From Rhodobiaceae bacterium (GTDB taxonomy: Bacteria > Pseudomonadota > Alphaproteobacteria > Parvibaculales > Parvibaculaceae): a stretch of 64,000 nucleotides of DNA. The stretch spans positions 1,736,001 to 1,800,000 of the forward strand of contig CP030277.1 in assembly GCA_003330885.1 (NCBI GenBank). The letters run 5' to 3'. Both the position numbers and the translations under genes were made by a program. A model generated the notes under the pieces. That model was not told the origin of the DNA, did not search any database, and was given only the letters and a program-made list of their open reading frames with translations. This document shows positions 1-34,695 of the stretch, piece after piece (position 1 is the stretch's first letter; each line of letters begins with the position of its first letter).

Positions 1-315
1 TTCTTGATCCCGGGCGTGGGCGAAACACTCCGCATCAACGGCAAAGCGGAAATAACCACAGAGCCGGAGCTTTGTGCGTCATTTGCCATGCAGGGTAAAA
101 ATCCAAAATCGGTGATCATCATCAAAATCGACACGGTCTACTTCCAGTGTCAAAAAGCGCTCGCCCGTTCAAAACTCTGGGACCCAAGCTCCATCGTTGA
201 TCGGTCCACCCTGCCTACAGCAGGGCAGATGGCAGAAGCCATGTCTACGGAACCCTTTGATGGCAAAGCCTATGATGAAGACTATCCAGAGCACCTGGAG
301 AAAACGATCTACTAA
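1..315 (+). CDS. PPOX-class FMN-dependent enzyme, C-terminal part
   Basis: The reading frame is open from base 1 and ends with TAA at 313-315, so only the last 104 residues are visible and the start lies left of the window. The text resembles the C-terminal half of pyridoxamine-phosphate-oxidase-like flavoproteins of the DR_2398 type: an IPGVGETLRINGKA strand, a KIDTVYFQCQKAL segment, and a tail running through LWDP. These proteins bind FMN in a split-barrel fold; substrates are mostly unknown. It converges on the oxidoreductase gene that ends 10 bases further on. Family assignment is by recognised sequence pattern only. Confidence 0.75.
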   Translation, partial: FLIPGVGETLRINGKAEITTEPELCASFAMQGKNPKSVIIIKIDTVYFQCQKALARSKLWDPSSIVDRSTLPTAGQMAEAMSTEPFDGKAYDEDYPEHLEKTIY

Positions 316-11610: not shown

Positions 11611-11787
11611 TCAGGTCTTTGAATTCTCCTCTAGCGCAGCAACGCGATCTCGCAGCGCATCAATCTCTGCCTGCTGACGTGCGACATTCACCGCCAGCAC
11701 CTCTTCCGGCCGCTCGTGCACAACCCTATCCAATTGTTCAATCCACAGCTTCGCCCGATTAAGACGGGAGGTGACTTCGTTCTTCAT
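11611..11787 (-). CDS. 58-residue coiled-coil protein
   Basis: A 58-codon gene with ATG at 11787 preceded by AGGCAGG, stop TGA at 11611. The predicted text starts MKNEVTSRLNRAKLWIEQLD and ends DALRDRVAALEENSKT, with a leucine/alanine heptad pattern (AEIDALRDRVAALEE) suggesting a short coiled coil. It is the first gene of the unit with TetR downstream. Function unknown; a partner or accessory subunit of neighbouring enzymes is possible. Confidence 0.65.
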   Translation of the reverse strand: MKNEVTSRLNRAKLWIEQLDRVVHERPEEVLAVNVARQQAEIDALRDRVAALEENSKT

Positions 11788-11803
11788 AGCTTACCTGCCT
11801 TTC

Positions 11804-11819
11804 TAGATCATTCAATCTT
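11804..11819. promoter_or_regulatory. Candidate TetR operator, copy 2
   Basis: TAGATCATTCAATCTT differs at one base from the copy at 10936-10951 and lies 17 bases upstream of the 58-residue gene, an almost identical position relative to the start. This suggests autoregulation of the TetR unit. Confidence 0.6.
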
Positions 11820-11936
11820 ATAAATGGTCAGGCCGATTTTTTTTACAAGAACAATTGATCTTTTATCCGAGAAAACAAAGCCGCAACCCAAATTTTTCAG
11901 GTCGCGGCCCTTACTCTTCCTTAGATAGACACCAGC

Positions 11937-12437: not shown

Positions 12438-12530
12438 AAGGGCACCTCTCCAAGTGGTTGCTTGGATATTTAGGCACCCACACCTGCCTTAGCCAATAAC
12501 TGCTGTGCACAAGCCCGTGAAAAAGGGAAC

Positions 12531-12562
12531 GTCACGCAAGGTTCATATTTTCCTTGCGTGAC
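12531..12562 (-). terminator. Probable terminator after YHS copy B
   Basis: Perfect 11-bp inverted repeat (GTCACGCAAGG 12531-12541, CCTTGCGTGAC 12552-12562) with a 10-base loop. On the minus strand it lies just after the stop of the YHS gene at 12583 and is followed by GTTCCCTTTTT, a modest T run. Confidence 0.6.
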
Positions 12563-12582
12563 AAATCTGGAGAAGCAAACGT

Positions 12583-13083
12583 TCAATGAGCGGCCAATTT
12601 CACCCAATTTGCGTTCGCTTTTTCGATGCGCCCCGTTATGTCTCCCTGCCAAAGGGTGCGCATTCGAAGCGTTTTGTTGAGGTAAAGACGACCATCGACA
12701 ATGGTCCAGGCATCGGGGTCCGTTGCCACTTTATGTGCCCCGAGAGACAAAGCGTAGGCGCAATAGCCACCATAGGCCGGCGCGTATTTTTCAGGCTCTG
12801 CAACAAACAAGTCTCTGTTCTCTGCAGACGAAAATTGCCAGAGGACGCCATGATACTCCGTAGTGAACTCTGGAATGCCATCCACCCTTGCACTCTGAGT
12901 AAAATACGCAACCACGTCAGCCCCACGAATGGCCACGCCTTCGCTCACAAAAGTTGAACCACCGGAAGCTCCACCGTCTGCACCATGGACGACAGTGGGC
13001 GTCATTACACTTGCACATACCCACGCTACCGCACCAACAAGCAAAGCGAATGGGTGAGAAGACTTGATTGAGTTTTTGATCAT
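12583..13083 (-). CDS. Exported YHS-domain protein, copy B
   Basis: 166 residues, same length and layout as the neighbour at 11937: signal peptide, GVAIRGADVVAYFT, WQFSSAENRDLF, PEKYAPAYGGYCAYALSLG and VDGRLYLNKT. The conserved block is nearly identical while the signal peptide and last 25 residues differ, so the duplication is not recent. A terminator-like hairpin separates the two copies. Confidence 0.85.
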   Translation of the reverse strand: MIKNSIKSSHPFALLVGAVAWVCASVMTPTVVHGADGGASGGSTFVSEGVAIRGADVVAYFTQSARVDGIPEFTTEYHGVLWQFSSAENRDLFVAEPEKYAPAYGGYCAYALSLGAHKVATDPDAWTIVDGRLYLNKTLRMRTLWQGDITGRIEKANANWVKLAAH

Positions 13084-13204
13084 ATTGACCTCAGCTAAAA
13101 ATTGATGGTCAAACTTGATCGGGGCCTTCCCAACGGCAGGTTAATGCAGACCTCAACTTTATGTGAGGACAACCCGTCTACCAACAAAGGTCTAGAGAAC
13201 GCCG

Positions 13205-14815: not shown

Positions 14816-14921
14816 GAACTCATCCTCCCTGGTGACATATTTTTAACGTCGTTTCTTGGCTCTTTCTTGAGCGTTTACAGGCCATTCTCGATATCGGCGC
14901 ATTAATCGGAAACGCATCTAT

Positions 14922-14998
14922 TGACATTAATGTCAGCAATAACCATCTGTCGTATTGACACAGATGTAAGTAACATCTACAAAAGTGACAGTTTGTCA
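14922..14998. promoter_or_regulatory. Divergent control region with three inverted repeats
   Basis: Between the monooxygenase and the Coq4-like gene are TGACATTAATGTCA (14922-14935, perfect palindrome), CATCTGT-N9-ACAGATG (14944-14966, enclosing TGTC-N5-GACA) and TGACA-GTT-TGTCA (14986-14998). Shared TGACA/TGTCA half-sites suggest a dimeric repressor controlling both directions. No regulator gene is adjacent. Confidence 0.55.
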
Positions 14999-15024
14999 TT
15001 ACAGAATGCGATGAGGAGCACAAT

Positions 15025-15795
15025 ATGACAAGTCCTACCCCTTTTATTGACCCTGCCCGCCAGCGCTCGCGTATCAAGCCGCTGAAAGCCTGGGGGCACA
15101 TGCAGAAGCTGATCGCGGACAAAGAAGACACAGCACAGGTCTTCCACATCATTGAAGCGCTGAACGGCAACGTGAAGCTTGCCGACTTTGAGCGCTTCAT
15201 GAAGTCAGAACAAGGCCCCGCCCTGCTCGCAAAACACGCTGACCTTCCAACCATGCTGGATAATCATGCGCCTTTGAAAAGCCTGCCAAATGGCACGGTC
15301 GGTCGTGCATATGTCGAGTTTATGGAAAGCGAAGGCTTGAGCGCTGCAGGCCTCGTGGCTGAAAGCGAAACGAACAACGCACATCGTCAACAGTTCGATG
15401 ATGATCTCACCTGGTACATGAACAGGGGTCGCGATACCCATGACCTCTATCACGTGCTCACCGGTTATGGCCGTGACGCACTTGGCGAAGCAGCCCTTCT
15501 TGGATACACCCATAGCCAGCACGGCGGACTGGGCATCAACTTCATCGCTTTTATGGGCGGACGAACGATCGCTAAGGAAGCACCACGCAACGCAAATATC
15601 AAAGCAGTCATCGCTGAGGCACGGCGCAACGGAAAGGCAGCCGCACGCATCGTTGATCAGGATATTGATGCATTGCTGCGCGAGCCAATCGCAGACGCTC
15701 GCGCGCGCCTGGGCATCAACGAACCAGTCCTCTACAAACGCGCTCTGGAGATCTTCTCAGAATATGAGCTCGACCCGGCAGCGGTGGCTGCCTGA
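15025..15795 (+). CDS. Coq4 family protein
   Basis: 256 residues. H139-D140-x-x-H143-x11-E155 is the HDxxHx11E metal motif of Coq4, followed by GYTHSQHGGLGINFIAFMGG. Eukaryotic Coq4 works in coenzyme Q assembly and oxidative decarboxylation of the ring; bacterial homologues are widespread in alphaproteobacteria and often sit beside unrelated enzymes. Here it is divergent from a Baeyer-Villiger monooxygenase with shared operator-like repeats, so a role in that catabolic pathway is as likely as ubiquinone synthesis. It is followed by a 10-bp stem terminator. Confidence 0.85.
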   Translation: MTSPTPFIDPARQRSRIKPLKAWGHMQKLIADKEDTAQVFHIIEALNGNVKLADFERFMKSEQGPALLAKHADLPTMLDNHAPLKSLPNGTVGRAYVEFMESEGLSAAGLVAESETNNAHRQQFDDDLTWYMNRGRDTHDLYHVLTGYGRDALGEAALLGYTHSQHGGLGINFIAFMGGRTIAKEAPRNANIKAVIAEARRNGKAAARIVDQDIDALLREPIADARARLGINEPVLYKRALEIFSEYELDPAAVAA

Positions 15796-15829
15796 TCTGG
15801 GTTCGAGGCTGACTTTTCAACTGTCGCAG

Positions 15830-15858
15830 AGAGGCATAGTCACCTATGCCTCTTTTTG
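15830..15858 (+). terminator. Rho-independent terminator
   Basis: AGAGGCATAG (15830-15839), 4-base loop, CTATGCCTCT (15844-15853), then TTTTTGC. It ends the Coq4-like transcript and overlaps the last codons of the converging MFS gene. Confidence 0.85.
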
Positions 15859-17213
15859 CTTGATTGGATAAAGAAGGCTGGCACCAAGCCCAGGAATGAA
15901 ATCGCCATGCCGATGACAAAGATCATCGGTAGGCCGAGATTTTCCGCTGGAACGGACAACAGCGCTCCGAAAAGACTGAGCCCGAGCGACGACCCGATCT
16001 GACTGGCAAGGCGGCTGACTCCAGACGCGGTTCCAAACATAGCGGGTGGGACTGCGGTTGCGATCACGGAGGTCAGTGGCGGCTGAGCAAATCCGTGTCC
16101 AACACCCTGTAGAACAAGTCCTGCAACCAGGACAGGGACGCTGAAGAGATAAACGCCCAGCCCTACCAGCAGCAGGCCAATTGACTGCAGGGCGGTCCCC
16201 ACAAGAGCACCAAAACGTTCGCCATAGTGCGCCGAGAGAGAGCCCCCCATGGGCGTCGCAATCGTGAGGCTCGCCGTGCGGACCAGCATCATGGCTGCTG
16301 CAACAGACACGCTATATCCAAAATGTCCGATCAACACCAAAGGCGTGGCCACAAGACCACCGAGATACGACCCCTGCAGAAGAAACGATGTCGCAACCGG
16401 CGCATTGAAATTCCGCGCCTTAAGAAGCATCGGAGGCACAATGGGATGAGCCACCTGCCGTTCGAACCTGAAGAAAGCGAGAAGTCCGACAGCACCGAGA
16501 ACAAGTGCGCTCCACTTCATCCAGGCTGCAACCCCCTCTTCCGAGATCGAGCCAACAGAGAAGAGAAGAAACAGCAGAGAGACGATAAGAGCAAAGTTCC
16601 CCAGATGATCGAACGCTGCTGGCCGTGCTTCTGTCTCCGGTAAGGCTCTGACAGCAATGACCCAGGCGATAACGCCGGAGACAATCTGAAACATAAAAAC
16701 AGATCGCCAACCGAAGAAATCTACCAACGGGCCACCCAAAATAAGCCCAAGAGCCGCAGACCCTGGTCCACCCATGGACCACCAGCCGATAACCCGCGTC
16801 CGCTCATCATCTGTGAACACATGAAAGAGCAGCGCCATGGCCGAGGGTGTCGTGGCTCCCGCCAGCAACATGGAAATCACCCGGAAGGCGATCAGTGACC
16901 AGATATCCCAGGCAAAAAAGCAGAGCGCTGCGAAAACCGTGGAGCCCGCAATGCCGAAGATGAACAACCTACGGTGGCCATACATATCTCCCAGCTTGCC
17001 AAGCAGCGGCAAACAAACTGCGCTGATCAACATTGGCGCGGAGACGGACCAGGTCGCCAACGCTTCAGTAACACCAAACTCTTCTGCGATCTGTCCAAGT
17101 GCAACCGTGAGGATGGTGAACGGAAAGCCCGTCGCCAACATGCCGATCAAGGTCACATAGAGAACCCGGCGAGATTGGACTCGCTTTTCTATGTCAGCAT
17201 CAGGCGTACTCAT
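15840..17213 (-). CDS. MFS transporter, drug exporter type
   Basis: 457 residues with about 14 hydrophobic segments, starting LYVTLIGMLATGFPFTILTVALGQIAEEFG. The motif A loop LGKLGDMYGHRRLF after segment 2 and the motif C-like WSMGGPGSAALGLILGGPLVDFFGWRSVF in segment 5 place it in the DHA2/EmrB-like drug:H+ antiporters. It probably exports small toxic compounds from the inner membrane. No regulator is adjacent. It is the last gene before the island boundary. Confidence 0.88.
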   Translation of the reverse strand: MSTPDADIEKRVQSRRVLYVTLIGMLATGFPFTILTVALGQIAEEFGVTEALATWSVSAPMLISAVCLPLLGKLGDMYGHRRLFIFGIAGSTVFAALCFFAWDIWSLIAFRVISMLLAGATTPSAMALLFHVFTDDERTRVIGWWSMGGPGSAALGLILGGPLVDFFGWRSVFMFQIVSGVIAWVIAVRALPETEARPAAFDHLGNFALIVSLLFLLFSVGSISEEGVAAWMKWSALVLGAVGLLAFFRFERQVAHPIVPPMLLKARNFNAPVATSFLLQGSYLGGLVATPLVLIGHFGYSVSVAAAMMLVRTASLTIATPMGGSLSAHYGERFGALVGTALQSIGLLLVGLGVYLFSVPVLVAGLVLQGVGHGFAQPPLTSVIATAVPPAMFGTASGVSRLASQIGSSLGLSLFGALLSVPAENLGLPMIFVIGMAISFLGLVPAFFIQSSKKRHR

Positions 17214-17336
17214 GGGGGATCAGGACTCAAATGGAAACAGGGTGAAAAAGTGCGCCCAACCTAATCGTCGAAACAGATGAGTGCAAAGACCCTGTTCACT
17301 TTGGATCGTTTGATGCGGTATAGGAAATTTTGGACT

Positions 17337-17391
17337 TGGTGGGCCGTGTAGGATTCAAACCTACGACCTAGTGATTAAGAGTCACTAACTC
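17337..17391 (-). other. tRNA-Lys(CTT) 3' half, island attachment site (attL)
   Basis: Read on the minus strand, this has a 5-bp anticodon stem (AGTGA/TCACT) around loop CTCTTAA (anticodon CTT), a variable loop, a perfect T arm (GTAGG TTTGAAT CCTAC), then ACGGCCC-A-CCA. The matching 5' acceptor strand GGGCCGT and a normal D arm are absent: the sequence upstream turns into TAGGAGCTATATGG. It is therefore a 3' fragment, not a working tRNA. The orientation and the integrase 136 bases away fit an island inserted into tRNA-Lys, with the intact tRNA expected at the far right end beyond this window. Confidence 0.8.
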
Positions 17392-17526
17392 TATATTCCA
17401 TATAGCTCCTACCTCTACGCTTTATCCTGGTTTTTAGCCGTTTCCTGAAAACTCCACCGACAGCAAACCGCGCAAATACACGACCTATCGGTATCTATTT
17501 GGTAGCTATTCTGCTATTGTCTTCGC

Positions 17527-18744
17527 ATGGCCCAGCAGAAGATAACCAAGAGAGCAGTTGAGAACCTCGCCAAAGGCGAAACGATTTTCGACACAGAGGT
17601 CCCAGGATTTTTTGTCCGTAGACAGATCAAAAGGCCTAGCTATGGCATCAAATTCCGGATCAAAGGCAGACAAGGGACTTTCGCCATCGGCGCGCATGGA
17701 GTCTTGGCACCTGATCAGGCCAGACGAAAAGCGCGCGAGCTCCTAGTCGGCATCCAAAACGGCGTTGACCCCAGAGAAGAAAAGCGGAGGCAGAAGGAAG
17801 GCCTTACCCTAACCGAAGCAATCGAAAAATTTCTCTCCATTCACACCGAGAAGAAAAGTAAACCTGAGACCCGGAAGCAATACAACCGCATACTCAAGTC
17901 CATCGTTGCACCCAAATTGGGAAAGAAAAAGCTCAAGGAGGTAACACTGAATGACATTGAGAGACTACACGCCGCATATGAAGACACCCCCTACCAAGCC
18001 AATAGAATGCTTGCGATCCTCTCCAAGCTGTTCAGTCAGGCAGAAAAATGGGGAGAACGTGATCATGGCAGCAATCCCTGCCGTCATGTTGATCGATACG
18101 CCGAGAAATCAAGAGAACGCTTCTTGAGCGGCGACGAGCTGCGAAAACTGGCATCCGCCCTAGAGAGCTCGTGGCCAGAAGAAAACAACAGTCAAAAAGA
18201 CGACATTCGTCCCCTTGCCTCCCCCTTCTGCATCGCCGCGATTTGGCTATTGCTGCTTACCGGCGCAAGGCTCAACGAAATTCTCACTATGGAATGGAAG
18301 TTTCTAAACGACGAACTCAATTCAGCGCGATTACCAGATTCCAAAACTGGCACCAAAACAATTTACTTTTCTGAAGCGGCGCAGAAAATCTTGCGACGCC
18401 TACCCAAAATTGATGGCAACCCATACGTCATCGTCGGACGAAAGGAAGGCGCACACCTGGTCAATCTTCAAAAGCCTTGGCGACGAATTTTGGAAGCGGC
18501 AGAAATCGAAGATGTGAGGCTTCACGATTTAAGACATACCTACGCCAGCTATGGCGCAATGAACGACTTAAGCCAACCATTGCTAATGAAGCTGCTCGGT
18601 CACGCGCAGCCCGCTACAACTCAAAAGTACCTGCACCTTCAAGACGCGCCCCTCCACATCGGAAATGCGCGAGTGTCCGAAGCCATGCTCAGAGAGATAA
18701 ACCAAACTGCAACAAAACAGGCGTTTGTGAAAAAGAAAGTGTGA
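17527..18744 (+). CDS. Tyrosine recombinase / island integrase
   Basis: 405 residues in the P4-like integrase layout: N-terminal DUF4102-type arm-binding domain (TKRAVENL... FFVRRQIKRPSYGIKFRIKGRQGT), a SAM-like core-binding domain (about 95-180), then the catalytic domain with R248 (TGARLNEIL), K273, H333-x-x-R336 (HDLRHTYAS), H359 (LLGHAQPATTQKY) and nucleophile Y368. All catalytic residues are present, so it could be active. It lies next to the tRNA-Lys fragment, its probable target. Confidence 0.95.
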   Translation: MAQQKITKRAVENLAKGETIFDTEVPGFFVRRQIKRPSYGIKFRIKGRQGTFAIGAHGVLAPDQARRKARELLVGIQNGVDPREEKRRQKEGLTLTEAIEKFLSIHTEKKSKPETRKQYNRILKSIVAPKLGKKKLKEVTLNDIERLHAAYEDTPYQANRMLAILSKLFSQAEKWGERDHGSNPCRHVDRYAEKSRERFLSGDELRKLASALESSWPEENNSQKDDIRPLASPFCIAAIWLLLLTGARLNEILTMEWKFLNDELNSARLPDSKTGTKTIYFSEAAQKILRRLPKIDGNPYVIVGRKEGAHLVNLQKPWRRILEAAEIEDVRLHDLRHTYASYGAMNDLSQPLLMKLLGHAQPATTQKYLHLQDAPLHIGNARVSEAMLREINQTATKQAFVKKKV

Positions 18745-19350
18745 TTTGGCGGCCTAAGAACACGAAATTCATCACAATCAAGTTTTGGCAATAAATGTCG
18801 CTTCACCCGCACCTGGAAACTTGACTCGGCTAATCAGCTCAAGCGGAATTCAAATTTGAGACCTAGCTGAGACAACCGGCTCACCGCACCCTTTTACACC
18901 TCCATACCTGCATTTTTGGAGAAATACTATCTGGATTGATCCTTTTGCGACCAAATTCCACGATTAACGACAGTCCGCAGACTCCAAGTAAAACCCTAAT
19001 ATAGATTCAGGGCGCATCCGCTGGTCGTTGTGAGAAGAACAGAAAATAGCCCCCCCACGAACACCAACAAAGAGACTTTGTTTCTCTTCAAAAACGGCAT
19101 CAAAATTCTTTGTTTATTGCCATTTCTGACTAAGCAGTGGATCAAAGTTGTGTAAGTAGTTGGGTAGCTAATTCTCCATCTAGTCATCCCGGAAAGAAAA
19201 TACAGAAGCGGCGATTGGAGAAAACCGGAGGTGGGGAGGCCTATAAGTCACTTCTATCCTTAGGTTTTACAAAAAAAATGTTTATTTATAAGAACAGAAA
19301 CATATATATGAAGTATAGAATGATTTTATCGACATAGTAATGGACGGAAA
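18745..19350. other. AT-rich region without a clear gene
   Basis: Only short unconvincing open frames. Bases 19070-19340 are rich in A/T runs and probably contain promoters for the small HTH gene. No tRNA or hairpin terminator recognised. Confidence 0.4.
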
Positions 19351-25294: not shown

Positions 25295-25951
25295 TCAGAC
25301 GGGAGGCGACGTGGTGTTTTGAAAGCTGGCAGTGCTAGGAATGAAGCGCGGTACTCGGTCTGCATATTGGCGATAAACATCCCCCATCTCAGCCTCAACT
25401 TCTGCTTCTTCGCTCAAGGCAAGCCGCCAGTACATCACCAGCAACACAGGGAACATGCCTAGGGTCAGCAGGGTCGGCCATTGGAGCAGAAAGCCCACCA
25501 AGATGAGGACAAACCCAACGTATTGCGGATGCCGGATGTGACTATACGGTCCGGATGTTGCGAGCGTACCCGCCCTCTGGGCTTGATAGAGAACGCGCCA
25601 CGCCGCTGACAGCAAAAGAAATCCCAATCCGATGAATACGAAACTTAGCAAATGGAACGGCCCAAAGTGCGGGTTGGTTTTCCATCCAAAGAGCATCTCG
25701 AGCAAGTGGCCTGCATCATGCGAAAACCAATCAATGTCTGGATAGCTGGTCTGCAACCAACCCGACAGAAAGTATATCGTGAGCGGAAAACCATACATCT
25801 CCGTAAACAGCGCAATGAGAAACGCACTGAAAGCGCCGAATGATTTCCAGTCTCTCCCTGTTTTCGGTTTGAAAAAACTAAACGCAAATATGATGAAAAT
25901 GGCGGAGTTTATAAAAGCCAGAAACCAAAGTCCATAAGAAGACGCGTGCAT
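25295..25951 (-). CDS. Isoprenylcysteine carboxyl methyltransferase-like membrane protein
   Basis: 218 residues with about five membrane segments and the ICMT/NnrU-type cofactor motif GPYSHIRHPQYVGF followed by SEEAEVEAEMGDVYRQYADRVPRFIP. It is an integral inner-membrane methyltransferase of unknown substrate, family members of which recur in copper and heavy-metal gene clusters. It is the last gene of the operon that begins with the copper ATPase; only 2 bases separate it from the DUF2933 gene. Confidence 0.85.
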   Translation of the reverse strand: MHASSYGLWFLAFINSAIFIIFAFSFFKPKTGRDWKSFGAFSAFLIALFTEMYGFPLTIYFLSGWLQTSYPDIDWFSHDAGHLLEMLFGWKTNPHFGPFHLLSFVFIGLGFLLLSAAWRVLYQAQRAGTLATSGPYSHIRHPQYVGFVLILVGFLLQWPTLLTLGMFPVLLVMYWRLALSEEAEVEAEMGDVYRQYADRVPRFIPSTASFQNTTSPPV

Positions 25952-25953: not shown

Positions 25954-26256
25954 CTAATCGCGCTCCTTGTCTGAATCATGACCACCATGACCACCATGAC
26001 CACCATGACCACCATGACCACCATGACCACCATGACCACCATGCATAAACAGATGAATGCCTACACAAGCAAACAAGAGCAAGAGAAGAAGGGCATTTCC
26101 GGTAAACAGATGCACTCGATGCTCATAGGTTAAGAGCAAGCCGACGACGATGATAAATGCGATCGCGACAAGACCGGTTTTCGACCTCCAGAAGCCCGAA
26201 CTTTGGTTTTCTCTGTCATTCATATCTTCCATGTCCTTCGTGTCTCCCTCATTCAA
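25954..26256 (-). CDS. DUF2933 membrane protein with Gly-Gly-His repeat tail
   Basis: 100 residues: acidic N-terminus, two short membrane segments (about residues 28-43 and 54-68), then a tail of seven or eight GGH units before DSDKERD. DUF2933 proteins accompany copper ATPases and cupredoxins; the histidine tail likely binds metal. The start overlaps the cupredoxin stop by 8 bases, so they are co-translated. The repeat number probably varies between strains. Confidence 0.85.
   Translation of the reverse strand: MNEGDTKDMEDMNDRENQSSGFWRSKTGLVAIAFIIVVGLLLTYEHRVHLFTGNALLLLLLFACVGIHLFMHGGHGGHGGHGGHGGHGGHGGHDSDKERD
25978..26043. repeat. 9-bp tandem repeat coding GGH units
   Basis: The nonamer CCACCATGA is repeated about seven times without interruption and encodes the glycine-glycine-histidine tail of the DUF2933 protein. 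Perfect tandem copies are prone to slippage. Confidence 0.9.
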
Positions 26257-26626
26257 CGATCAGCCGACCGCGGAACATTCCCATCGCACACGCGAATTCG
26301 TATTCACCAGGTTCGTCGGGCCTAAACTCGACAGGCACGGTCTCTCCGGTTGGCAGGTCTGCGCTTTTGTTGAAATCGGGAAAGATGACCCTCTCTGAAC
26401 ACGATGCCGTCTCCTCGCGACGAAAATTCAAGCGCACGGGTCGCCCATGTTGAACAATGATCGTGTCGGGTGTGTAGCCACCTTTTACGAGCACCATTAT
26501 TTCCTGATGCCCTTTGGAGGTTTCACTTGCGCGAACACCCTTTGTCCGTTTGAGCCAGAAAAACCAAACAATCAGCACAATGAGAAGGATACCGGCAATG
26601 AGAACGAGCCACTTGTCTGCAGTCAC
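26249..26626 (-). CDS. Membrane-anchored cupredoxin-domain protein
   Basis: 125 residues with an N-terminal membrane anchor (LVLIAGILLIVLIVWFFWL) and one cupredoxin-like domain: GYTPDTIIVQHGRPVRLNFRREE, CSERVIFPDF and EYEFACAMGMFRG. The ACAMGM segment with the earlier C supplies soft copper ligands in place of the classical His-Cys-His set. It sits in the copper ATPase operon and probably delivers or buffers copper at the outer face of the membrane. Confidence 0.85.
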   Translation of the reverse strand: MTADKWLVLIAGILLIVLIVWFFWLKRTKGVRASETSKGHQEIMVLVKGGYTPDTIIVQHGRPVRLNFRREETASCSERVIFPDFNKSADLPTGETVPVEFRPDEPGEYEFACAMGMFRGRLIVE

Positions 26627-26663: not shown

Positions 26664-27131
26664 TCACAAACCCAATCGTGTTAGGAGACGTGTCCCGGAG
26701 ACTGAAAAAAGAAGCCAGCCGCCACAAAGACCTCCAATGGCTGACATAACCACTCCGTTCCCAAGGAAGAGCGCCGCGTTGTCTTGGCCACCAAAGTACT
26801 GGAAGTAGTTTGCATCAAGTCGGTAGCAGAGGAGATTACAACCGACGCCTAGTAGCGCTATGCTCCATGCGGTCGTCGCCAAAATAGCGTTCCAGCCGGT
26901 AAGACGGTCCAGAACAAACAGATTAATTGCTGCGCCGAGAACGGCTCCCATCCCCACGCCACAGAACACGACCGTCCACAAGAACTTGGCTATCCAATCG
27001 CCCCCCGGGTACATTAGCAGCCCAAATACGAAGAAGATGCCAATCTCAATAAGCACCGCCCCAAGCAGACAAAGCACTAGAGATCGCCGATATCGTGTGG
27101 GCGCTTCAGGGTACGCAGCGATCGCTCTCAT
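26664..27131 (-). CDS. Four-segment membrane protein, hypothetical
   Basis: 155 residues with four hydrophobic segments (about 17-38, 46-72, 80-100, 120-145) and no recognisable catalytic motif. Its ATG overlaps the copper ATPase stop by 4 bases, so it is translated with the ATPase and probably contributes to copper export. I do not know the family. Confidence 0.7.
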
Positions 27132-29668
27132 GCCTTGCTCCTCGGAGCAAACAGTCGCAGCCGGTTTGAGTTGGAAACGACAGTCACTGAACTAAACGCC
27201 ATCGCGGCAGCAGCAATCAAAGGCGACAATAGAAGGCCAAAAAGCGGATAGAAGATGCCCATTGCGATGGGAATACCAAGAGCATTGTACCCAAATGCTC
27301 CGACTAGATTCTGGCGCACGTTTCTCATCGTTGCGCGGCTTATCTCTATCGCCGTCACCACACCGACTAAACTACCTTTGATGAGTGTCACATCACTTGC
27401 TTCAATCGCAACATCTGTCCCCGTGCCTATAGCGAACCCAACGTCGGCTTGCGCCAGGGCCGGGGCATCGTTGATGCCGTCCCCCACCATTCCAACTCGT
27501 TTACCCTCCAGCTGTAGCTTGCGAACTTCGTGAGCTTTATCGTCAGGAAGAACGTCTGCCAACACACGATCAACGCCGACAGATCGCGCTATCGCATCTG
27601 CCGTCCGCTGATTGTCCCCGGTCAGCATGATCACCTCAATCGCCATTCCCTTCAAAAGGTCAATGGCCTGCTTGGAGTCGTCTTTTACTGTATCAGCGAC
27701 AGCGACGAGGCCCACAGACCGGCCATCCACCGCAACGTACATGGGCGTCTTTCCCTCTGTCGCCAATCTGTCCCATTCGATTGTGAGGCTCTCAATATTG
27801 ATACTCTGATCATGCATGAGTTTCGCATTTCCGAGAAAAACCAATCTCCCGTCAACCTGGCCTGAAACTCCATGTCCAGGTATCGCTCGAAATGCGTCGG
27901 TGTTTACGAGATCGACACCGCGTGTGACAGCCCCGTTTACGATCGCCTCGCCAAGCGGATGCTCCGAACCACGCTCAAGCGATGCCGCATATCGCAGAAC
28001 CTGGTCTTCGGTCATTTCCCCGCTGGTAACGATATCAGTTAGTGACGGCTCACCTCGAGTGATGGTGCCTGTCTTGTCAACCACCAGTGCATCAAGCCTC
28101 TCGGCGCTTTGGAGTGCGTCCCCTGACCTGATCAGGACACCGTTTTCAGCCCCTTTTCCAATGCCAACAGTCAGAGATGTAGGTGTCGCTAGACCGAGGG
28201 CACACGGACAAGCAATTATGAGAGTCGTTACGAGAACGATTGTTGCGTAGATCACTCTGGGTTCGGGTCCGACTAGATACCAAACTACGAAGGAAATGAT
28301 CGCGAGTATCATTACAGCGGGGACGAAGTAGCCTGATACGAGATCGACGACCCTTTGAATGGGCGCTTTCGATCCCTGCGCATCTTTGACCATTGAAATA
28401 ATGTTGGCCAAGGCAGTGTCCTTTCCCACCTTCGTGGCCTGAAACTGAAAGCTGCCAGTCTTGTTGAGAGTGCCCCCTATGACTTCATCTCCGACCAACT
28501 TTTCGGTCGGAATTGACTCTCCCGTAATCATTGACTCATCAATCGCGCTTGATCCCTCAACGAGTTCACCGTCCACCGGTATTTTTTCACCGGGGCGGAC
28601 GATGATAATGTCTTTCACCAAGACCTCCTCGACAGGGATATCGAGCTCTTCGCCGCCCCGGACAACCCTGGCAGTTTTTGCTTGAAGGCCGATTAGTTTT
28701 TTGATTGCCTCAGACGTCCGTCCTTTTGCTTTAAGCTCAAGCGCTAGTCCCAACACGACGAGCGCGATGACTACCGACGTGACATCCCAAAACACCTCTG
28801 CAAGTTCGACTTTGGGGAACATGTCAGGATACGCAACAGCGACAACCGAATAGAGAAATGCTGCGGTAACGCCGATTGCAATAAGAGTGTGCATATTTGC
28901 GGAACGGTGCTTGAGACCGTCCCACATTCCGCTGAAAAACTGGGAGCCTGACCACAACAAAACAGGCAAAGTTAAAATACCGAGCAGCGCCCAAACGATC
29001 CGTCGGTTTTCACTTCCCATCGGCATCCAGTCGCGCAGACCAGGTATAAGATCGGGATAACTCAATCCCATTACTGGGATCGACACAATTGCAGCGAACC
29101 AGAACTTGCGCATAAGCGATCGATATTCGTTTTCGCGAGCCGCCTCCTCAAGGTCAGGCGCATCTTCTCCCGCGTCAGGCTGCGACTCGCGCCTGACGGT
29201 CTCTGGTTCTAGAATTTTGTGACCAGACGCTTCGATCGCTTGACGAATGGCAGTGAAATCCACCGAATCCGGCACATATTCGACGTCCACTGCGTTGGAA
29301 CCGACATTTGCAACCGCCGCGATGACCCCAGGCGTCGCCTTCAACGCGGTTTCGATGCGCGTCACGCAGGACGAGCAATGCATATTCTTTATCAAGAACC
29401 TAGTTTTGGCACTCCCGACACTGAACCCGGCTGCTCTTACTGTTTTTGCGAAGTCCAGAATTGAAGCCAGTTTGGCGTCGTAGCGAATTTCTACCAACTG
29501 GTTGGATAAATTGGCCCTGGCAGCTTCGACTCCCACTAAACCCTGGAGAGCTTTTTCGACTGCGGGAGGGCACTTACGACACGTCATGCCTCCGATCGAC
29601 AGCACAACTGATGCTTCTTCCACAATAGGGTCCAATTCCGGCCTAGTACTCATTTGTCCGACCACCAT
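27128..29668 (-). CDS. copA: Cu+-exporting P1B-type ATPase with two HMA domains
   Basis: 846 residues. Two N-terminal metal-binding domains: GGMTCRKC (C30, C33) and NMHCSSC (C98, C101). The membrane metal site is CPC ([13 protein letters not shown]), the phosphorylation site DKTGT, the hinge MLTGDNQRT and [14 protein letters not shown]. This is the CopA-type copper exporter of the inner membrane. It heads an operon with a membrane protein, a cupredoxin, a DUF2933 protein and an ICMT-like protein. An ECF-type promoter lies about 70 bases before its start and an ECF sigma gene is immediately upstream. A second, differently built copper ATPase is at 46321. Confidence 0.95.
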
Positions 29669-29736: not shown

Positions 29737-29763
29737 AGACGTCTAGCAACGACTCTTGTTACA
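29737..29763 (-). promoter_or_regulatory. ECF-type promoter before the copper ATPase
   Basis: On the minus strand TGTAAC (29763-29758), a 16-base spacer and CGTCT (29741-29737). The three bases before the -35 extend it to AACTGTAAC. The same AACTGTAAC-N16-CGTCT occurs before the CFA synthase and before the small gene ahead of PPK2. TGTAAC/CGTC is a common ECF sigma pattern. Confidence 0.8.
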
Positions 29764-29764
29764 G

Positions 29765-30448
29765 TTAAACGGCAGGTTCCGCGTCAATCTCCCAAGAATG
29801 TGTGTTCGAAACCTGCTCGACATCGCAATCAGATCGCTCACAAACAGCGCATGTGTGCTTCAGCATCTGCTTCAGTGCCATACGTCCACGGTAGAGACGT
29901 ATCCGGAGATTGCCGTCAGAGATTCCCAGCTTGGATGCTACCTCTGTCTGCGGTTCGCCCCGCAGATCGACCCAAAATACCGCCTGTGCATACTCAGGTT
30001 TGAGCTCGGAAAACTGGCTTTGAAAACAGGCATACTCCATTCCACGACGCTTCTTCATGGGAACATATGCAGGCGAAGGTGATACCTTCTCAATTTCCTG
30101 CTCAGCGGCAAAGTCGAGGAGTACACTGCGCTCCCTGTTCTTCTGGCGAAAGTAATCGGCCAGAACAGACTTGAGAACAATCCGCAGCCAACCAACCGGT
30201 GCGCGTGGATCTCGTATTTGGGCGGACTTCAAAAGCACTCTCACGCAGAAGTCTTGCAATACGTCCTCTGCATCATCGCGGTTGCCAATGTTTGTCTGCA
30301 GATACCTCAGGAATTCATCCCGGTGGAGCTCCAAAGCCTTGGACACTGATGGATCGAGCGGTCTTCCTGCCTTTACATCCTCCACTACGGAATAGGCCAC
30401 ACTCTCACAGTCGTTAGCTGCGTTGGTATTGTTGTGGTTCTCCAACAT
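29765..30448 (-). CDS. ECF RNA polymerase sigma factor with Cys-rich tail (1)
   Basis: Sigma region 2 reads EDVLQDFCVRVLL and APVGWLRIVLKSVLADYFRQKNRERS; region 4 reads LKPEYAQAVFWVDLRGEPQTEVASKLGISDGNLRIRLYRGRMALKQML. A tail follows with CAVCERSDC, resembling the metal-sensing cysteine-rich domain of CorE-type ECF factors, which work without an anti-sigma. I prefer ATG 30448 (GGGAAG upstream); an in-frame TTG at 30487 would add 13 plausible residues. It lies directly upstream of the copper ATPase operon, so copper-dependent activation of that operon is likely. Confidence 0.88.
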   Translation of the reverse strand: MLENHNNTNAANDCESVAYSVVEDVKAGRPLDPSVSKALELHRDEFLRYLQTNIGNRDDAEDVLQDFCVRVLLKSAQIRDPRAPVGWLRIVLKSVLADYFRQKNRERSVLLDFAAEQEIEKVSPSPAYVPMKKRRGMEYACFQSQFSELKPEYAQAVFWVDLRGEPQTEVASKLGISDGNLRIRLYRGRMALKQMLKHTCAVCERSDCDVEQVSNTHSWEIDAEPAV

Positions 30449-30716
30449 TTTTAAGGCTTCCCAATCCAACTCTGGAACGGCACTCAAGCGAGTACTGAAG
30501 AGCGAATTTGCTAAGTTCTATCGGGATAAACTGAACATCACATCTCTGGCATTGACCGACTTCATGCCTGGTCATTGCGGTGAGGTTCAGCTGTGAGGAG
30601 ACGCTCCTGTACTTTGCGCACGGGAAACGATCATCGACGTCCTCGCCATTAAGATGGCAAAGACTAGTGGTTTAAAGCACCGCGTCGATCATCTATCGGA
30701 AGCAAGAGCTCCGGCG

Positions 30717-31115
30717 TCAGGAAACGGCAAATTCTGGAGGATGTTGTAAAGGAAGGCTATCAACTGGATGCAATGCAGTTACCCGTCCGATACGAACGAG
30801 CAAACCCACACGGCTTTTGGGTAACGCCGATGCTTCAGGCATGATTGCAGCACACATACCAAAACCTGGCGTACAACAGGGATGGCAGTTACCGGTATCT
30901 ACCGGTGTCTGCTGCCGGTGCTCTGACGAGGCATTGTCGGCCTCATCCTGTAGATCAATTGAATGATCTCCATGATGATTGTCGGCATTCTCATCAGAGT
31001 GTGGATGTGAGGCGATGTCAAAAGACTGCGGAGTCTCAGCAGTGACGGTCTGCGGAAGCGCCAGCAAAGCCAGCACTTGAACCAACACCAACACCTTGAG
31101 GCTCATTATTCTCAT
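30717..31115 (-). CDS. Secreted His/Cys-rich small protein
   Basis: About 132 residues from ATG 31115 (AGGTGA upstream): signal peptide ending VTAE, then a histidine-rich stretch (HPHSDENADNHHGDHS), then CHPCCTPGFGMCAAIM near the middle. Proteins at 41243 and 45204 share this design (His-rich, then a CC cluster, then C-x-A-I). The layout resembles DUF2946-like exported metal-site proteins. It lies between the two ECF sigma genes. An FNR-like box lies 72 bases upstream. Confidence 0.7.
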   Translation of the reverse strand: MRIMSLKVLVLVQVLALLALPQTVTAETPQSFDIASHPHSDENADNHHGDHSIDLQDEADNASSEHRQQTPVDTGNCHPCCTPGFGMCAAIMPEASALPKSRVGLLVRIGRVTALHPVDSLPLQHPPEFAVS

Positions 31116-31186
31116 ATGACCATCACCTGTTTTCGACACAAAGCGTTTCGTCATTTTTACTATAGACTAGAAAACACTGGGTCAAA

Positions 31187-31200
31187 TTGATCAACGTCAA
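31187..31200. promoter_or_regulatory. FNR/DNR-like box
   Basis: TTGATCAACGTCAA matches the TTGAT-N4-(A/G)TCAA form recognised by FNR/CRP-type oxygen or NO regulators. Its centre is about 78 bases before the secreted protein start, which would suit an activator site. A near twin (TTGATCGACGTCAA) is at 59056. Confidence 0.45.
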
Positions 31201-31253
31201 CAATTGAGCAGCCCCTCCAGCAACGGGAAGGTTTGCGTCTCAAACACATCCTT

Positions 31254-31868
31254 CTACTGATTTTCTGGGGCGGCCGACAAACGTTTTGATCTACTCACCG
31301 TATAATCGCAATCGCAGTCAAGATACCCATGCACTGGACAAGTCCGGCAGGTCTCATCGAACCTCTCCTTCAGCGCTTGCCGCGCACGATGCAGACGAAC
31401 CCGAATATTTCCTTCAGTAGTCTTGAGATCCTTGGCAATATTTTCGCGAGTTTCGCCAACAAGATCCGCGCGCCATATAACTTCCGCATATTCCCGCTTC
31501 AGCGTGGGAAGGAGTTTGTAGAGGCAATTGCAAATTATGAGATCGAGCTCTTGACTTCCCTCTATATCTCCGCCCAATGCCTCAAGATACTGGTATTCGG
31601 TCTCAGACCGACGCCGTTTTCCCTGAGCGCGGTAATAGTCAATCAGGGTAGTCTCCAAAACGCGGCGCATCCATGGTCGTAGCTTCTCGGAGTCTCGGAC
31701 ATCATCGATCCGGGACAGAACCTTGACATAAAAGTCCTGCAGAACATCCCTCGCTTCTTCTCTGTTGCCGAGTCGGCGCGTCAAAAATCGAAGGAAATCC
31801 TGTTGGATTTCCGCCAGAACAATGTGAACTGCATCGCGCTGCGTTCCACCTTCGCTATCTTCTGACAT
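31254..31868 (-). CDS. ECF RNA polymerase sigma factor with Cys-rich tail (2)
   Basis: 204 residues. Region 2: EARDVLQDFYVKVLSRIDD and LRPWMRRVLETTLIDYYRAQGKRRR. Region 4: LKREYAEVIWRADLVGETRENIAKDLKTTEGNIRVRLHRARQAL. The tail carries C174, C177, C185 and C187 (CRTCPVHGYLDCDCDY), and another pair, C113 and C115, sits before region 4. This is the CorE-like metal-sensing layout. It diverges from the CFA synthase gene, whose promoter has the ECF motif, so this sigma or its paralogue probably drives it. No anti-sigma gene is adjacent. Confidence 0.9.
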   Translation of the reverse strand: MSEDSEGGTQRDAVHIVLAEIQQDFLRFLTRRLGNREEARDVLQDFYVKVLSRIDDVRDSEKLRPWMRRVLETTLIDYYRAQGKRRRSETEYQYLEALGGDIEGSQELDLIICNCLYKLLPTLKREYAEVIWRADLVGETRENIAKDLKTTEGNIRVRLHRARQALKERFDETCRTCPVHGYLDCDCDYTVSRSKRLSAAPENQ

Positions 31869-31957
31869 ATTTCTCCACTTTTCGGCGTCGCAACTAGGCC
31901 CAGCCCTTATCGCTGCTTTCCTCTTTTGCCGTCAACTCGAATTCCTTATCGGAAAAC

Positions 31958-31984
31958 TGTAACGCACCGACTCGACCAGCGTCT
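31958..31984 (+). promoter_or_regulatory. ECF-type promoter before CFA synthase
   Basis: TGTAAC (31958-31963), 16-base spacer, CGTCT (31980-31984), with AAC before the -35. The start codon of the CFA synthase is about 75 bases downstream. Confidence 0.8.
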
Positions 31985-32058
31985 CTTAGGTACACGCGTC
32001 TCGCGATAAACTGCGGCGCCCCACCAAGCGAAATATACTAGCTGCGAAAGAAAACACT

Positions 32059-33303
32059 ATGTGGATCAAGGCACTATCCTGTTTTTTATCAAAGTTTGTT
32101 CATCATGGTTCCTTAAACGTCTCATTTCCAGATGGAAAAGAAAGGCGGTATGGCGAACCGTCTGCTGAGCCAATCAACATACATCTGAGCGAGCCCTCGC
32201 TGCCTCGTCGAATTCTCCTTAATCCTGAGTTGGCACTTGGTGAAGCCTACATGGATGGCTCTCTGACGATTGAGAATGACGATTTGTATGGCTTTCTTGA
32301 GTTGCTCATTATGAATCAAAGACACCAACCAAATCTTCTACACTACCGTTGGTTGGCGATCTTCCGTGTCGCGATAAGGTGGTTTACCCAACTCAATCGC
32401 ATCCAAAAGTCACGAAAGAATGTCGCTCACCACTACGATCTTTCCGGTGAACTCTACGATCTCTTTCTTGATGCTGATCGTCAGTATTCCTGCGGATATT
32501 ATGAGAGTTTGACAGATACCCTTGAGACTGCTCAGGAGAACAAAAAATCACTCATTGCTAAAAAACTACTACTGTCGCCCGAGCACAAAGTTCTGGACAT
32601 CGGAAGTGGCTGGGGAGGATTAAGCCTCTTTCTCGCGCGATCATTTGGCGCCAAAGTAACCGGCGTTACACTGTCGCAAGAGCAATTCAATATCTCCCGC
32701 GCACGCGCTGCAAATCAGCATTTGGAAGCTGATGTTCAGTTCCTCCTGCAAGATTATCGAGACGTCACCGGCCAGTTTGATCGGATTGCTTCTGTGGGGA
32801 TGTTCGAGCATGTGGGCGTGCCACACCATCAGGAATACTTTGAAACGCTATCTTCCCTGCTAAAACCTGACGGCGTGGCGCTTGTACACACGATCGGCCG
32901 AACAGACGGGTCTGGTGCAACCAATCCCTGGATTGCTAAGCACATTTTCCCAGGGGGCTACAGTCCCGCGCTATCTGAAATGATGCTGGCCATCGAGAAA
33001 TCTGGACTGTGCGTTACAGACATTGAGGTCTGGCGGCTGCACTATGCGAAGACACTTCGTGATTGGCGGTCGCGGTTTGAAGTAAATTTGGATCGTGCCA
33101 GTCAGCTCTACGATGATCGGTTTTGCCGCATGTGGCGCTTCTACTTAGTCACCAGCGAATTAGCATTCCAGCTCAATGATCACGTCGTTTTCCAGGTGCA
33201 ATTGGCAAAAAAACAAGATTCTGTGCCCCTCACGAGGGAATACCTGGCTGACAAAGTTTCAGCAACGATGGCCCACGATATGGAAACCATACCTGACGCC
33301 TGA
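32059..33303 (+). CDS. cfa: Cyclopropane-fatty-acyl-phospholipid synthase family protein
   Basis: 414 residues with the CFA synthase signature set: NVAHHYDLSGELYDLFLD (121-138), YSCGYY (143-148), SAM motif DIGSGWGG (180-187) and GVTLSQEQ, plus MFEHVG near residue 254. It transfers a methylene group from SAM to unsaturated phospholipid acyl chains in the inner membrane, which stiffens the membrane under stress. The promoter matches the metal-ECF motif, which would tie membrane remodelling to copper stress. About 60 to 100 bases of leader are expected. Confidence 0.92.
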   Translation: MWIKALSCFLSKFVHHGSLNVSFPDGKERRYGEPSAEPINIHLSEPSLPRRILLNPELALGEAYMDGSLTIENDDLYGFLELLIMNQRHQPNLLHYRWLAIFRVAIRWFTQLNRIQKSRKNVAHHYDLSGELYDLFLDADRQYSCGYYESLTDTLETAQENKKSLIAKKLLLSPEHKVLDIGSGWGGLSLFLARSFGAKVTGVTLSQEQFNISRARAANQHLEADVQFLLQDYRDVTGQFDRIASVGMFEHVGVPHHQEYFETLSSLLKPDGVALVHTIGRTDGSGATNPWIAKHIFPGGYSPALSEMMLAIEKSGLCVTDIEVWRLHYAKTLRDWRSRFEVNLDRASQLYDDRFCRMWRFYLVTSELAFQLNDHVVFQVQLAKKQDSVPLTREYLADKVSATMAHDMETIPDA

Positions 33304-33356
33304 CAAAAGGACTTCTGTCAAAGTCCGTTGGTTGCAAGGTCCTTGTTATTCACAAC

Positions 33357-33383
33357 TGTAACAACTCTCCCTCCAGAGCGTCT
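33357..33383 (+). promoter_or_regulatory. ECF-type promoter before the small gene and PPK2
   Basis: TGTAAC (33357-33362), 16-base spacer, CGTCT (33379-33383), preceded by AAC. It is the third copy of the motif in 3.7 kb and lies about 100 bases before the small gene at 33484. Confidence 0.8.
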
Positions 33384-33483: not shown

Positions 33484-33696
33484 ATGAATACCCCCAAGCT
33501 TCGCCACCAGAACAACTTGAGCGTCACGCTCTACCTTCCAATTTTCAGAGAGAGGCTGAAGAAACTCAAAGCGAGGGGGAAGTCGAATTCTGACGAGGCT
33601 GTCCAACTGAGACGATCTCTTGAGATTGCTGACAGATGTACGAACGATCGAGAGATCGAGCAGGAAAGGCCTTTCGTTGGTTTGGTTGCTGACTAG
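33484..33696 (+). CDS. 70-residue basic hypothetical protein
   Basis: The ATG at 33484 follows GAGGAGG at a good distance. The protein (NTPKLRHQNNLSVTLYLP, then a charged helix ERLKKLKARGKSNSDEAVQLRRSLEIADRC) has no family I recognise. It is the first gene after the third ECF-type promoter, 210 bases upstream of PPK2. Confidence 0.55.
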   Translation: MNTPKLRHQNNLSVTLYLPIFRERLKKLKARGKSNSDEAVQLRRSLEIADRCTNDREIEQERPFVGLVAD

Positions 33697-33906
33697 AAGA
33701 GCTGGCATGCCAAAGATTGAATTTAGCAGCTCGTTGTCGCGAAGGTAACTCATTCATTACGGATACACTCAGGAGACGTGAGGTCTATTTCCATTTGTCC
33801 AACGCGTCCGGCCATTTGACGACAGCAGCAGGAGTTCTCCGCAATATCATTGTGAAGAATGTTTGAGTCTTGCTTTACCCGCTTTCCAGCGCCTGGAGGA
33901 AGAACC

Positions 33907-34695
33907 ATGAGCACCAAATCCGGCAAGACTTCGGACACTGCAATACCTGGATACAAGGAAACTCTGCGTACGCTTCAGGTTGAGCTCGTGAAACTGCAAC
34001 GGCATTTAATCAAGAATGATCTACAGATCGTCATTCTCCTCGAAGGGCGCGACACTGCGGGAAAAGATGGCGTTATTAAGAGGATCACTCAGCATCTGAG
34101 TCCTCGAGAGACACGGGTGGTTGCACTAGGAAAACCCTCTGAACGAGACCGGAAATCCTGGTACTTTCGCCGATATGCCGAGCACCTACCATCCAAGCAG
34201 GAAATGGTTTTTATGAACCGCAGCTGGTACAACCGCGCAGGCGTAGAGACAGTCATGGGATATTGCACCCAGCCGGAGTATGAGACTTTCATGAGGACGG
34301 TGTTGCCCTTCGAACACCTTCTAGTGACCTCCGGCATTCAGATTCTCAAATACTATTTGGACATTTCGAAGAAGGAACAGCAAGCCAGACTGAGGGACCG
34401 AAGGTCAAACCCACTCAAAACCTGGAAGACAAGTCCCGTTGACCGGGCGGCGCAGAGAAATTGGAATGCGTATAGCGAAGCGCGCAACGCAATGTTTCAT
34501 CAAACTCACAATGAAATAACACCATGGTACATCGTGAAGGCGGACAATAAGAAGTCGGCCAGATTGAATATCATCCGTCACATCATGTCGAACGTCGAAT
34601 GTCCCGACAAGGATGAGCATGTGGCAATCCCGGACGCGGACGTCGTATTCACCTACAGCAAAAAAGCGTTGAGCAATGGAGCTATTGAACCCTGA
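33907..34695 (+). CDS. ppk2: Polyphosphate kinase 2
   Basis: 262 residues from ATG 33907, preceded by GGAGGAAG. Walker A is EGRDTAGKDG (46-55), the next conserved block VVALGKPSERDRKSWYFRRYAEHLPSKQEM, then FMNRSWYNRAGVE with the second nucleotide-binding motif and DRRSNPLKTWKTSPVDRAAQRNW. PPK2 enzymes interconvert polyphosphate and nucleoside di/triphosphates in the cytoplasm. Under metal stress, polyphosphate can bind copper or be hydrolysed to help export. Here it is downstream of a metal-ECF promoter. Confidence 0.92.
   Translation: MSTKSGKTSDTAIPGYKETLRTLQVELVKLQRHLIKNDLQIVILLEGRDTAGKDGVIKRITQHLSPRETRVVALGKPSERDRKSWYFRRYAEHLPSKQEMVFMNRSWYNRAGVETVMGYCTQPEYETFMRTVLPFEHLLVTSGIQILKYYLDISKKEQQARLRDRRSNPLKTWKTSPVDRAAQRNWNAYSEARNAMFHQTHNEITPWYIVKADNKKSARLNIIRHIMSNVECPDKDEHVAIPDADVVFTYSKKALSNGAIEP

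Follow-up and report, generated by a model that had tools for sequence, protein, structure and literature searches.

A candidate CorE-like ECF sigma factor regulon of Alphaproteobacteria with cyclopropane synthase as a putative core target

Three promoter-like sites beside two ECF sigma factor genes

In a 64,000-nucleotide stretch of the genome of a Rhodobiaceae bacterium (contig CP030277.1, positions 1,736,001 to 1,800,000; hereafter the window), three promoter-like sites, P1 to P3, lie beside two genes for extracytoplasmic function (ECF) sigma factors, ECF1 and ECF2, and stand before a copper ATPase gene (copA), a cyclopropane fatty acid (CFA) synthase gene (cfa), and a small open reading frame (ORF; sORF70) with a polyphosphate kinase gene (ppk2) behind it. 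We estimate a probability of about 0.88 that P1 to P3 form a joint regulon and are promoters to which RNA polymerase is directed by a CorE-like ECF sigma factor, mainly ECF2 with a probable contribution from ECF1. The comparative data are best read as an alphaproteobacterial regulon of the CorE-like ECF type in which cyclopropane synthase is a core target.

In the mechanism that we propose, ECF2 would sense metal through its own cysteine-rich tail and linker CXC motif, with no anti-sigma factor, and would read TGTAAC at -35, the last base by an arginine-type recognition helix, and CGTCT at -10. P1 would then turn on copA and the genes for a 155-aa protein, a cupredoxin, a DUF2933 protein, and a methyltransferase (copper export and envelope), P2 would turn on cfa (cyclopropanation of membrane lipids), and P3 would turn on the unit from sORF70 to ppk2 (polyphosphate). 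From sequence we infer sigma-dependent initiation at P1 to P3, a metal signal (copper or another thiophilic metal), and co-transcription behind P1 and P3; copper as the inducer is suggested by analogy to CorE and by the target genes.

The motif AACTGTAAC-N16-CGTCT has exactly three exact matches in the window. P1 (29766-29737, minus strand) lies 68 bp upstream of copA, its first two bases overlapping the TAA stop codon of ECF1; P2 (31955-31984, plus strand) lies 74 bp upstream of cfa, divergent from ECF2; and P3 (33354-33383, plus strand) lies 100 bp upstream of sORF70, all distances being measured from the -10 end of the site to the gene start. An initial annotation made from the window alone had reported three motif copies where promoters are expected, which we confirm; its coordinates began at TGTAAC, three bases inside the 9-mer. 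It had also placed each copy 70 to 100 bases before a gene, which is right for copA, cfa, and sORF70 but not for ppk2. The latter was rejected as the direct P3 gene, because sORF70 comes first and ppk2 starts 523 bp after P3. The whole genome, a single contig of 3,862,255 bases, bears out the restriction to this cluster: TGTAAC-N16-CGTCT matches only at P1 to P3, and exact matches to the shorter TGTAAC-N16-CGTC are likewise confined to them.

Looser matching adds little to these exact copies. At up to three mismatches the window holds six matches, the three non-exact ones each with three mismatches, and since shuffled windows average 3.48 such matches, with 16 of 100 shuffles reaching six, only the exact matches were counted. 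A one-mismatch search of the genome returned 91 further scattered sites vs. 398 for a backward control, and a wider regulon in this genome is therefore not claimed; the relaxed form TGTAA[AGT]-N16-CGTC was rejected as a route to one, with 5 scattered sites vs. 19 in the backward control.

The initial annotation considered the triple repeat far from chance. Among the 9-N(14..19)-5 dyads of the window, the AACTGTAAC dyad is the only one that recurs at least three times with an unconserved spacer; the other recurrent dyads (25-28 per gap) have conserved spacers in all cases, and those printed from the window resemble, by eye, DNA encoding HGG repeats. None of 10 Markov resamples contained any 9-N14..18-5 dyad three times, but at gap 16 alone 3 of 100 contained some 9-N16-5 dyad in three copies, placed freely within the 64 kb. 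The exact triple is real, and taken alone it is unusual, not impossible, so that comparative evidence is needed; clustering and conservation settle the matter. A chance repeat, which the three resamples would allow, has a negligible probability given the conservation of the motif across genera at a single spacing, and we regard it as refuted by the comparative data described below (fixed spacing in 80 and 42 loci).

Conservation of the motif with ECF2 relatives

A contig profile search with an alignment of ECF2 and eight relatives yielded at least 365 confirmed relatives, of which the best 80 loci (1.46 Mb) were kept; merging loci that share more than 5% of their 31-mers left 42 non-redundant loci. 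The 80 loci contain TGTAAC-N16-CGTCT 70 times, vs. 0-5 occurrences at each spacing of 12-15 and 17-21, and in the 42 non-redundant loci it occurs 27 times, with 0-2 occurrences at every alternative spacing between 8 and 25. This recurrence at one fixed spacing in loci with ECF2 relatives suggests that the sites are sigma factor promoters. TGTAAC-N16-CGTC is absent from 25 of the 42 loci, and among one-letter variants these 25 loci hold TGTAAT-N16-CGTC 30 times (control 0.25) and TGTAAG-N16-CGTC 13 times (control 0), the next variant being TGGAAC-N17-CGCC with nine (control 2.25). Counted by eye, 38 of the 42 loci have at least one of the TGTAAC-, TGTAAT-, or TGTAAG-N16-CGTC forms, and none of the three was found in L118, L120, L128, or L141. 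On this evidence the predicted regulon is not peculiar to the Rhodobiaceae genome.

For the targets, we examined 47 loci, comprising the window, the 42 non-redundant loci, L035, and L061, L062, and L063 (the last three from one genome). They contain 115 TGTAAN-N16-CGTC sites, ending in C (44), T (46), G (23), or A (2) at the -35 element; one site at a contig end has no downstream ORF. Downstream ORFs within 400 bp of a site were grouped into clusters, and the gene behind the site is a CFA synthase in 17 loci, the ECF gene itself in 15, and a P1B ATPase in 12, with five of the ATPase genes within 140 bp of the site and seven at 199-361 bp. Further targets are a Crp family gene (9 loci), a DUF5676-like small protein (6), phasin, DUF3141, and YHS-domain proteins (3 each), and sORF70 (2), in addition to seven other pairs and 30 single ORFs. 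Where the downstream gene recurs in at least two loci (84 sites), the median site-to-gene distance is 72 bp, and 67 of the 84 lie within 160 bp. By tblastn over the 42 loci, CFA synthase was found in 24 and a CopA-like protein in 22. The names of the Crp, phasin, YHS, DUF3141, and DUF5676 clusters rest on Pfam scans of one member each, as do Pit, DUF47, and acetate kinase, and the CFA and P1B ATPase relatives were named only through BLAST linkage to the window proteins. The name "polyhydroxyalkanoate synthase" was dropped for a roughly 600-aa target found in relatives, as the one member scanned is a DUF3141 protein.

Two further observations concern single target types. In L108, a multicopper oxidase gene (7219-9144, minus strand) has TGTAAT-N16-CGTC 30 bp upstream, and the CorE regulon likewise includes a multicopper oxidase, cuoB. 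The Crp family regulators stand behind TGTAAT sites in L086, L088, L089, L090, L095, L131, L134, L144, and L145 (one of the nine scanned by Pfam), which suggests a link to an oxygen or nitric oxide regulator.

Such targets raise the question of whether a genuine regulon responds here to low oxygen or envelope stress rather than to copper, the metal ATPase being one target of several. Sites or clusters in relatives do include DUF3141, FabI, CBS, DUF5676, arginine deiminase, phasin, acetate kinase, and phosphate acetyltransferase genes, in addition to the nine Crp family genes. However, the CorE-type sensor tail, the copper genes behind P1, and the multicopper oxidase of L108 speak for metal, and we consider a primary role in such stress unlikely.

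A candidate promoter-reading residue

The recognition helix of ECF2 is EGNIRVRLHR, and both ECF1 and ECF2 have an Arg before the [VI]RL motif. In the 10 loci where all ECF genes have Arg before [VI]RL[HY]R, 29 sites read TGTAAC and none TGTAAT or TGTAAG, whereas the 37 loci without such an Arg hold 15 TGTAAC, 46 TGTAAT, and 23 TGTAAG sites. The Arg label is associated with the last -35 base (Fisher test by locus, 6e-7; the tests ignore ancestry). The -35 end thus varies with one residue of the sigma helix, a candidate promoter-reading residue.

This association also bears on the possibility that another cellular ECF sigma factor drives the sites, with ECF1 and ECF2 as bystanders or targets. 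Other sigma factors are available, as the genome has 13 sigma r4_2 matches, 11 of them over the cut-off and ECF1 and ECF2 included. The ECF16 group (Caulobacter SigF, Sinorhizobium meliloti RpoE7) also uses a -35 starting with TGTAAC, with a spacer of 16-17 in two RpoE7 promoters (PMC6180224). Unlike P1 to P3, however, ECF16 promoters have CGAA at -10 and the group works with the anti-sigma factor NrsF, and the genome has neither an NrsF match nor any TGTAAC-N16/17-CGAA site; ECF16/SigF was rejected as the driver on these grounds. Moreover, the motif accompanies ECF2 relatives in non-redundant loci and shifts with their helix, and in 15 loci it precedes the ECF gene itself. We consider control by another sigma factor very improbable. 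The initial proposal that metal-type ECF factors are the drivers is supported by the conservation of motif and spacing, by the recurrence of the same downstream genes, and by the match between helix and promoter, from which initiation by these factors would follow.

The sites and sigma genes can also overlap. In 25 cases an ECF ORF has its stop codon no more than 40 bases from a site on the same strand. The TAA falls within TGTAA in 11 of these pairs, and in four, P1 among them, the stop begins four bases before it, so that the sigma gene often ends in the -35 element of the next promoter.

Cysteine layout and the inducing metal

CorE of Myxococcus xanthus (ECF44, now placed with ECF238) belongs to a class whose defining features are a CXC in the linker and a cysteine-rich domain at the C-terminus (PMC8999054). 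Its four invariant tail cysteines are 181, 184, 192, and 194; Cys189, the main copper-activation residue, is present in only 11 of 21 members and is not defining (PMC3107203). Both ECF1 and ECF2 contain the sigma2 and sigma4 domains of the class (PF04542 and PF08281, over cut-off). In ECF2, the linker CXC is C113-N-C115, which falls after Pfam r2 (22-84) and ahead of the main part of r4 (114-166), and the tail cysteines C174, C177, C185, and C187 have the spacing 3, 8, 2, identical to that of CorE 181, 184, 192, and 194; Tyr182 occupies the 189 spacing, and there is no Cys at the 189 and 206 spacings. ECF1 has only C154 in place of the linker CXC, and its tail cysteines C213, C216, and C221 match the spacing of CorE 181, 184, and 189, with 192 and 194 lacking. 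By these cysteine features ECF1 is a relative, not a full CorE-like member. Among 62 ECF-like ORFs in the 47 loci, picked by helix pattern and a tail cysteine, CXC is present in 60, and 54 have the exact tail pattern. The two ORFs lacking CXC are ECF1 and its sibling, which share the 181, 184, 189 tail spacing and the absence of 192/194.

The complementary cysteines of the paralogues raise the possibility that they divide the work at the same promoters in response to different cues. ECF1, with a Cys at the 189 spacing and none at 192/194, may respond to copper or be leaky, and ECF2, lacking 189, may be the switch for another metal or a redox cue. Copper induction by CorE is almost lost with the change C189A, and uninduced expression is higher with C192A and C194A (PMC3107203); CorE2 of M. 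xanthus, a CorE-like, metal-dependent sigma factor, answers Cd and Zn (PMC8999054); and both helices here have Arg before [VI]RL. Against such a division, C192A and C194A also weaken the fast response of CorE to copper (PMC3107203), the residues were matched without gaps over a short tail, and one of the two factors could be inactive. We regard it as possible, with the odds somewhat against it.

A still broader scheme would extend these features to the whole family: a code in which Arg specifies TGTAAC and Thr, Ala, Gly, Asn, or Ser specify TGTAAT, TGTAAG, or TGTAAC, a -35 element often shared with the sigma stop codon, and paralogues whose complementary cysteines make up a split metal/redox sensor commanding copper export, membrane cyclopropanation, and polyphosphate storage. 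This scheme is tentative and less likely than not to hold.

Sibling genome and the polyphosphate unit

The cluster is found in the same gene order in a genome of the same genus, G003 (locus L039/L068; L068 is record BAOK01000001, Alpha proteobacterium Mf 1.05b.01). Its P1 counterpart is TGTAAC-N16-CGTCC and its P2 counterpart TGTAAC-N16-CGTCT, with spacers that differ from those of the window; P2 counterparts are also present in L074 and L080. Between sORF70 and ppk2, L039 has a PHO4/Pit transporter gene and a full DUF47 gene, of which the window retains a DUF47 remnant only. L080 (a Sphingopyxis metagenome-assembled genome, MAG) and L081 (isolate EhC05), which are identical over 14.7 kb, have a site 102 bp upstream of the sORF70 homolog, i.e., a P3 counterpart, followed in L080 on the same strand by genes for CYTH-CHAD, PHO4/Pit, MgtC/DUF4010, DUF47 (Pfam), and PPK2 proteins, the last 68% identical to the window ppk2 product. 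The polyphosphate unit behind P3 thus appears fuller in L039 and L080 and partly deleted in the Rhodobiaceae genome. In L110, TGTAAT-N16-CGTCT stands directly upstream of a PPK2 ORF.

The full promoter-to-PPK2 operon is seen in one case, and the predicted polyphosphate link is real but thinner than the copper and CFA links. The coupling of copper export, membrane cyclopropanation, and polyphosphate metabolism put forward in the initial annotation therefore stands in part: joint control of the copper ATPase and CFA synthase is supported by conservation, while ppk2 would be reached only as a later gene of the P3 unit.

Several observations weigh against the proposed regulon or narrow it. In a bare motif scan of 146 relatives, the window's own genome included, TGTAAC-N16-CGTCT turned up in 35, at 44 sites in all, and its backward control pattern was frequent too. 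An ECF2 relative at E<=1e-15 is present in eight of the 146, five of which hold 13 sites and three none; the remaining 31 sites fall in 30 genomes that lack such a relative, and 3 of the 13 lie off the cluster (G001:C33, G003:C2:1934992, and G133:C3:600386). Bare matches are mostly background, and the weight lies in the clusters. With regard to the helix, the Arg label needs three changes on the tree, at least two of them forced, so that its association with the promoter rests on two to three events, and 5 of the 37 non-Arg loci have no TGTAAT or TGTAAG site, which together with the TGTAAC sites in non-Arg loci indicates that the code has exceptions. Neither ECF1 nor ECF2 has all the CorE cysteines, so that the inducing metal may be copper or another. 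Finally, no P3 counterpart is visible by eye before sORF70 in L039, and PPK2 is present in only 10 of the 42 non-redundant loci.

Relation to known systems

ECF2 resembles CorE in its linker CXC and cysteine-rich C-terminal domain and in having a copper ATPase among its (here predicted) targets. The CorE targets named are copper genes, i.e., copB, cuoB, copA (less sure), and MXAN_3427 (PMC3107203), and the predicted cfa and polyphosphate targets differ from these. The alphaproteobacterial members listed with CorE are from Roseovarius sp. 217, a Mesorhizobium, and Phenylobacterium zucineum (PMC3107203); our L132 is from Roseovarius sp. 217 and match H12 from a P. zucineum plasmid, an agreement at the organism level only. 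In E. coli, polyphosphate, Pit, and CopA have been tied to copper tolerance through ppk, ppx, and Pit mutants, with no ECF regulon in that account (PMC3994843).

Control of a CFA synthase by an ECF sigma factor has a precedent in RpoE-ChrR of Rhodobacter, Vibrio, and Shewanella. That system differs in its zinc anti-sigma factor ChrR, its singlet oxygen signal, and its promoter.

In the literature on ECF and CorE-like factors, the motif, copper, cyclopropane, and polyphosphate, covered mostly by titles and abstract openings and thinly for subscription journals, we recognised no description of such a regulon. A survey of marine bacteria reports CorE matches in every species with a broad model, its account naming no such regulon (PMC10141476), and a 2021 review gives CorE and CorE2 as the sole CorE-like sigma factors studied experimentally (PMC8103513). 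Sequence alone here yields a predicted promoter, part of a target list, and a candidate promoter-reading residue for a widespread family. Metal sensing by sigma factors becomes directly testable with a few reporters, as does the suspected connection of metal tolerance with polyphosphate and membrane composition, and the match between helix and promoter could aid the design of orthogonal sigma switches.

Genes of the cluster

ECF2 (31254..31868, minus strand) encodes the CorE-like ECF sigma factor, and ECF1 (29765..30487, minus strand) a second CorE-like paralog, placed by tree and with the reduced cysteine set; both have Pfam sigma r2 and r4 domains. Between them lies a gene for a 145-aa Cys/His-rich protein (30717..31154, minus strand) that looks secreted by eye, is 59% identical to its L039 counterpart, and has no Pfam or NCBIfam match. 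No anti-sigma family was found by Pfam and NCBIfam among the scanned cluster neighbors, which include this family-less protein. Secreted-looking Cys/His proteins also lie by ECF genes at L061:8606-8986 and L110:6237-6608 (by eye), and such small proteins might pass metal information to the sigma factors.

Behind P1, all on the minus strand, copA (27128..29668) encodes a copper-type P1B ATPase with two HMA stretches and is followed by a probable operon: a 155-aa protein (26664..27131) whose gene overlaps copA, with a counterpart in L039 and no family in Pfam or NCBIfam; a cupredoxin-domain protein (26249..26626; PF13473); a DUF2933 protein with HGG repeats (25954..26256; PF11666); and a PEMT/ICMT-type membrane methyltransferase (25295..25951; PF04191, PF04140). 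The HGG repeats are in tandem, and the dyads that recur most often in the window resemble them. In L080, the DUF2933 gene is preceded by its own TGTAAC-N16-CGTCT site.

On the plus strand, the cfa product (32059..33303; Pfam CMAS, 6e-84) matches NCBIfam CFA models with scores under their cut-offs. Behind P3, sORF70 (33484..33696), a conserved 70-aa ORF, is 56% identical to its L039 homolog and 44% to that of L080, with no family match in Pfam or NCBIfam. It is followed by the DUF47/PhoU_div remnant (33750..33860), 37 codons from near the gene end with 65% identity (E 5e-15) to residues 268-304 of a 305-aa L039 ORF (PhoU_div by Pfam), and by ppk2 (33907..34695; Pfam PPK2, 2.7e-89; NCBIfam TIGR03707 over cut-off).

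Distribution and mobility

Members of the ECF2 family come from numerous genera of Alphaproteobacteria, from Marinobacter, and from conjugative plasmids. Among plasmid records, 27 carry a relative at E<=1e-25, and 15 of these are predicted to be conjugative. On a conjugative Roseovarius plasmid, the relative lies beside genes for a CFA synthase, a second ECF factor, a DMT transporter, DUF3141, and fabI, in a neighborhood that also holds CBS, DUF5676, arginine deiminase, and heavy-metal ATPase genes.

Four loci labeled as a Rhodobiaceae MAG, a Stappia MAG, a Thalassospira profundimaris isolate, and a Maricaulis MAG (L069, L070, L071, and L072) share about 13.4 kb plus 5.1-5.2 kb with the ECF cluster (about 5327-18790 and 1-5528) at 98.7-99.98% identity, which points to an island that moved recently or, for the MAGs, to mis-binning. 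A contig labeled as the cyanobacterium Phormidium willei (L084) holds an alphaproteobacterial-type cluster that falls inside that clade on the tree, and is probably a co-culture contaminant in its assembly.

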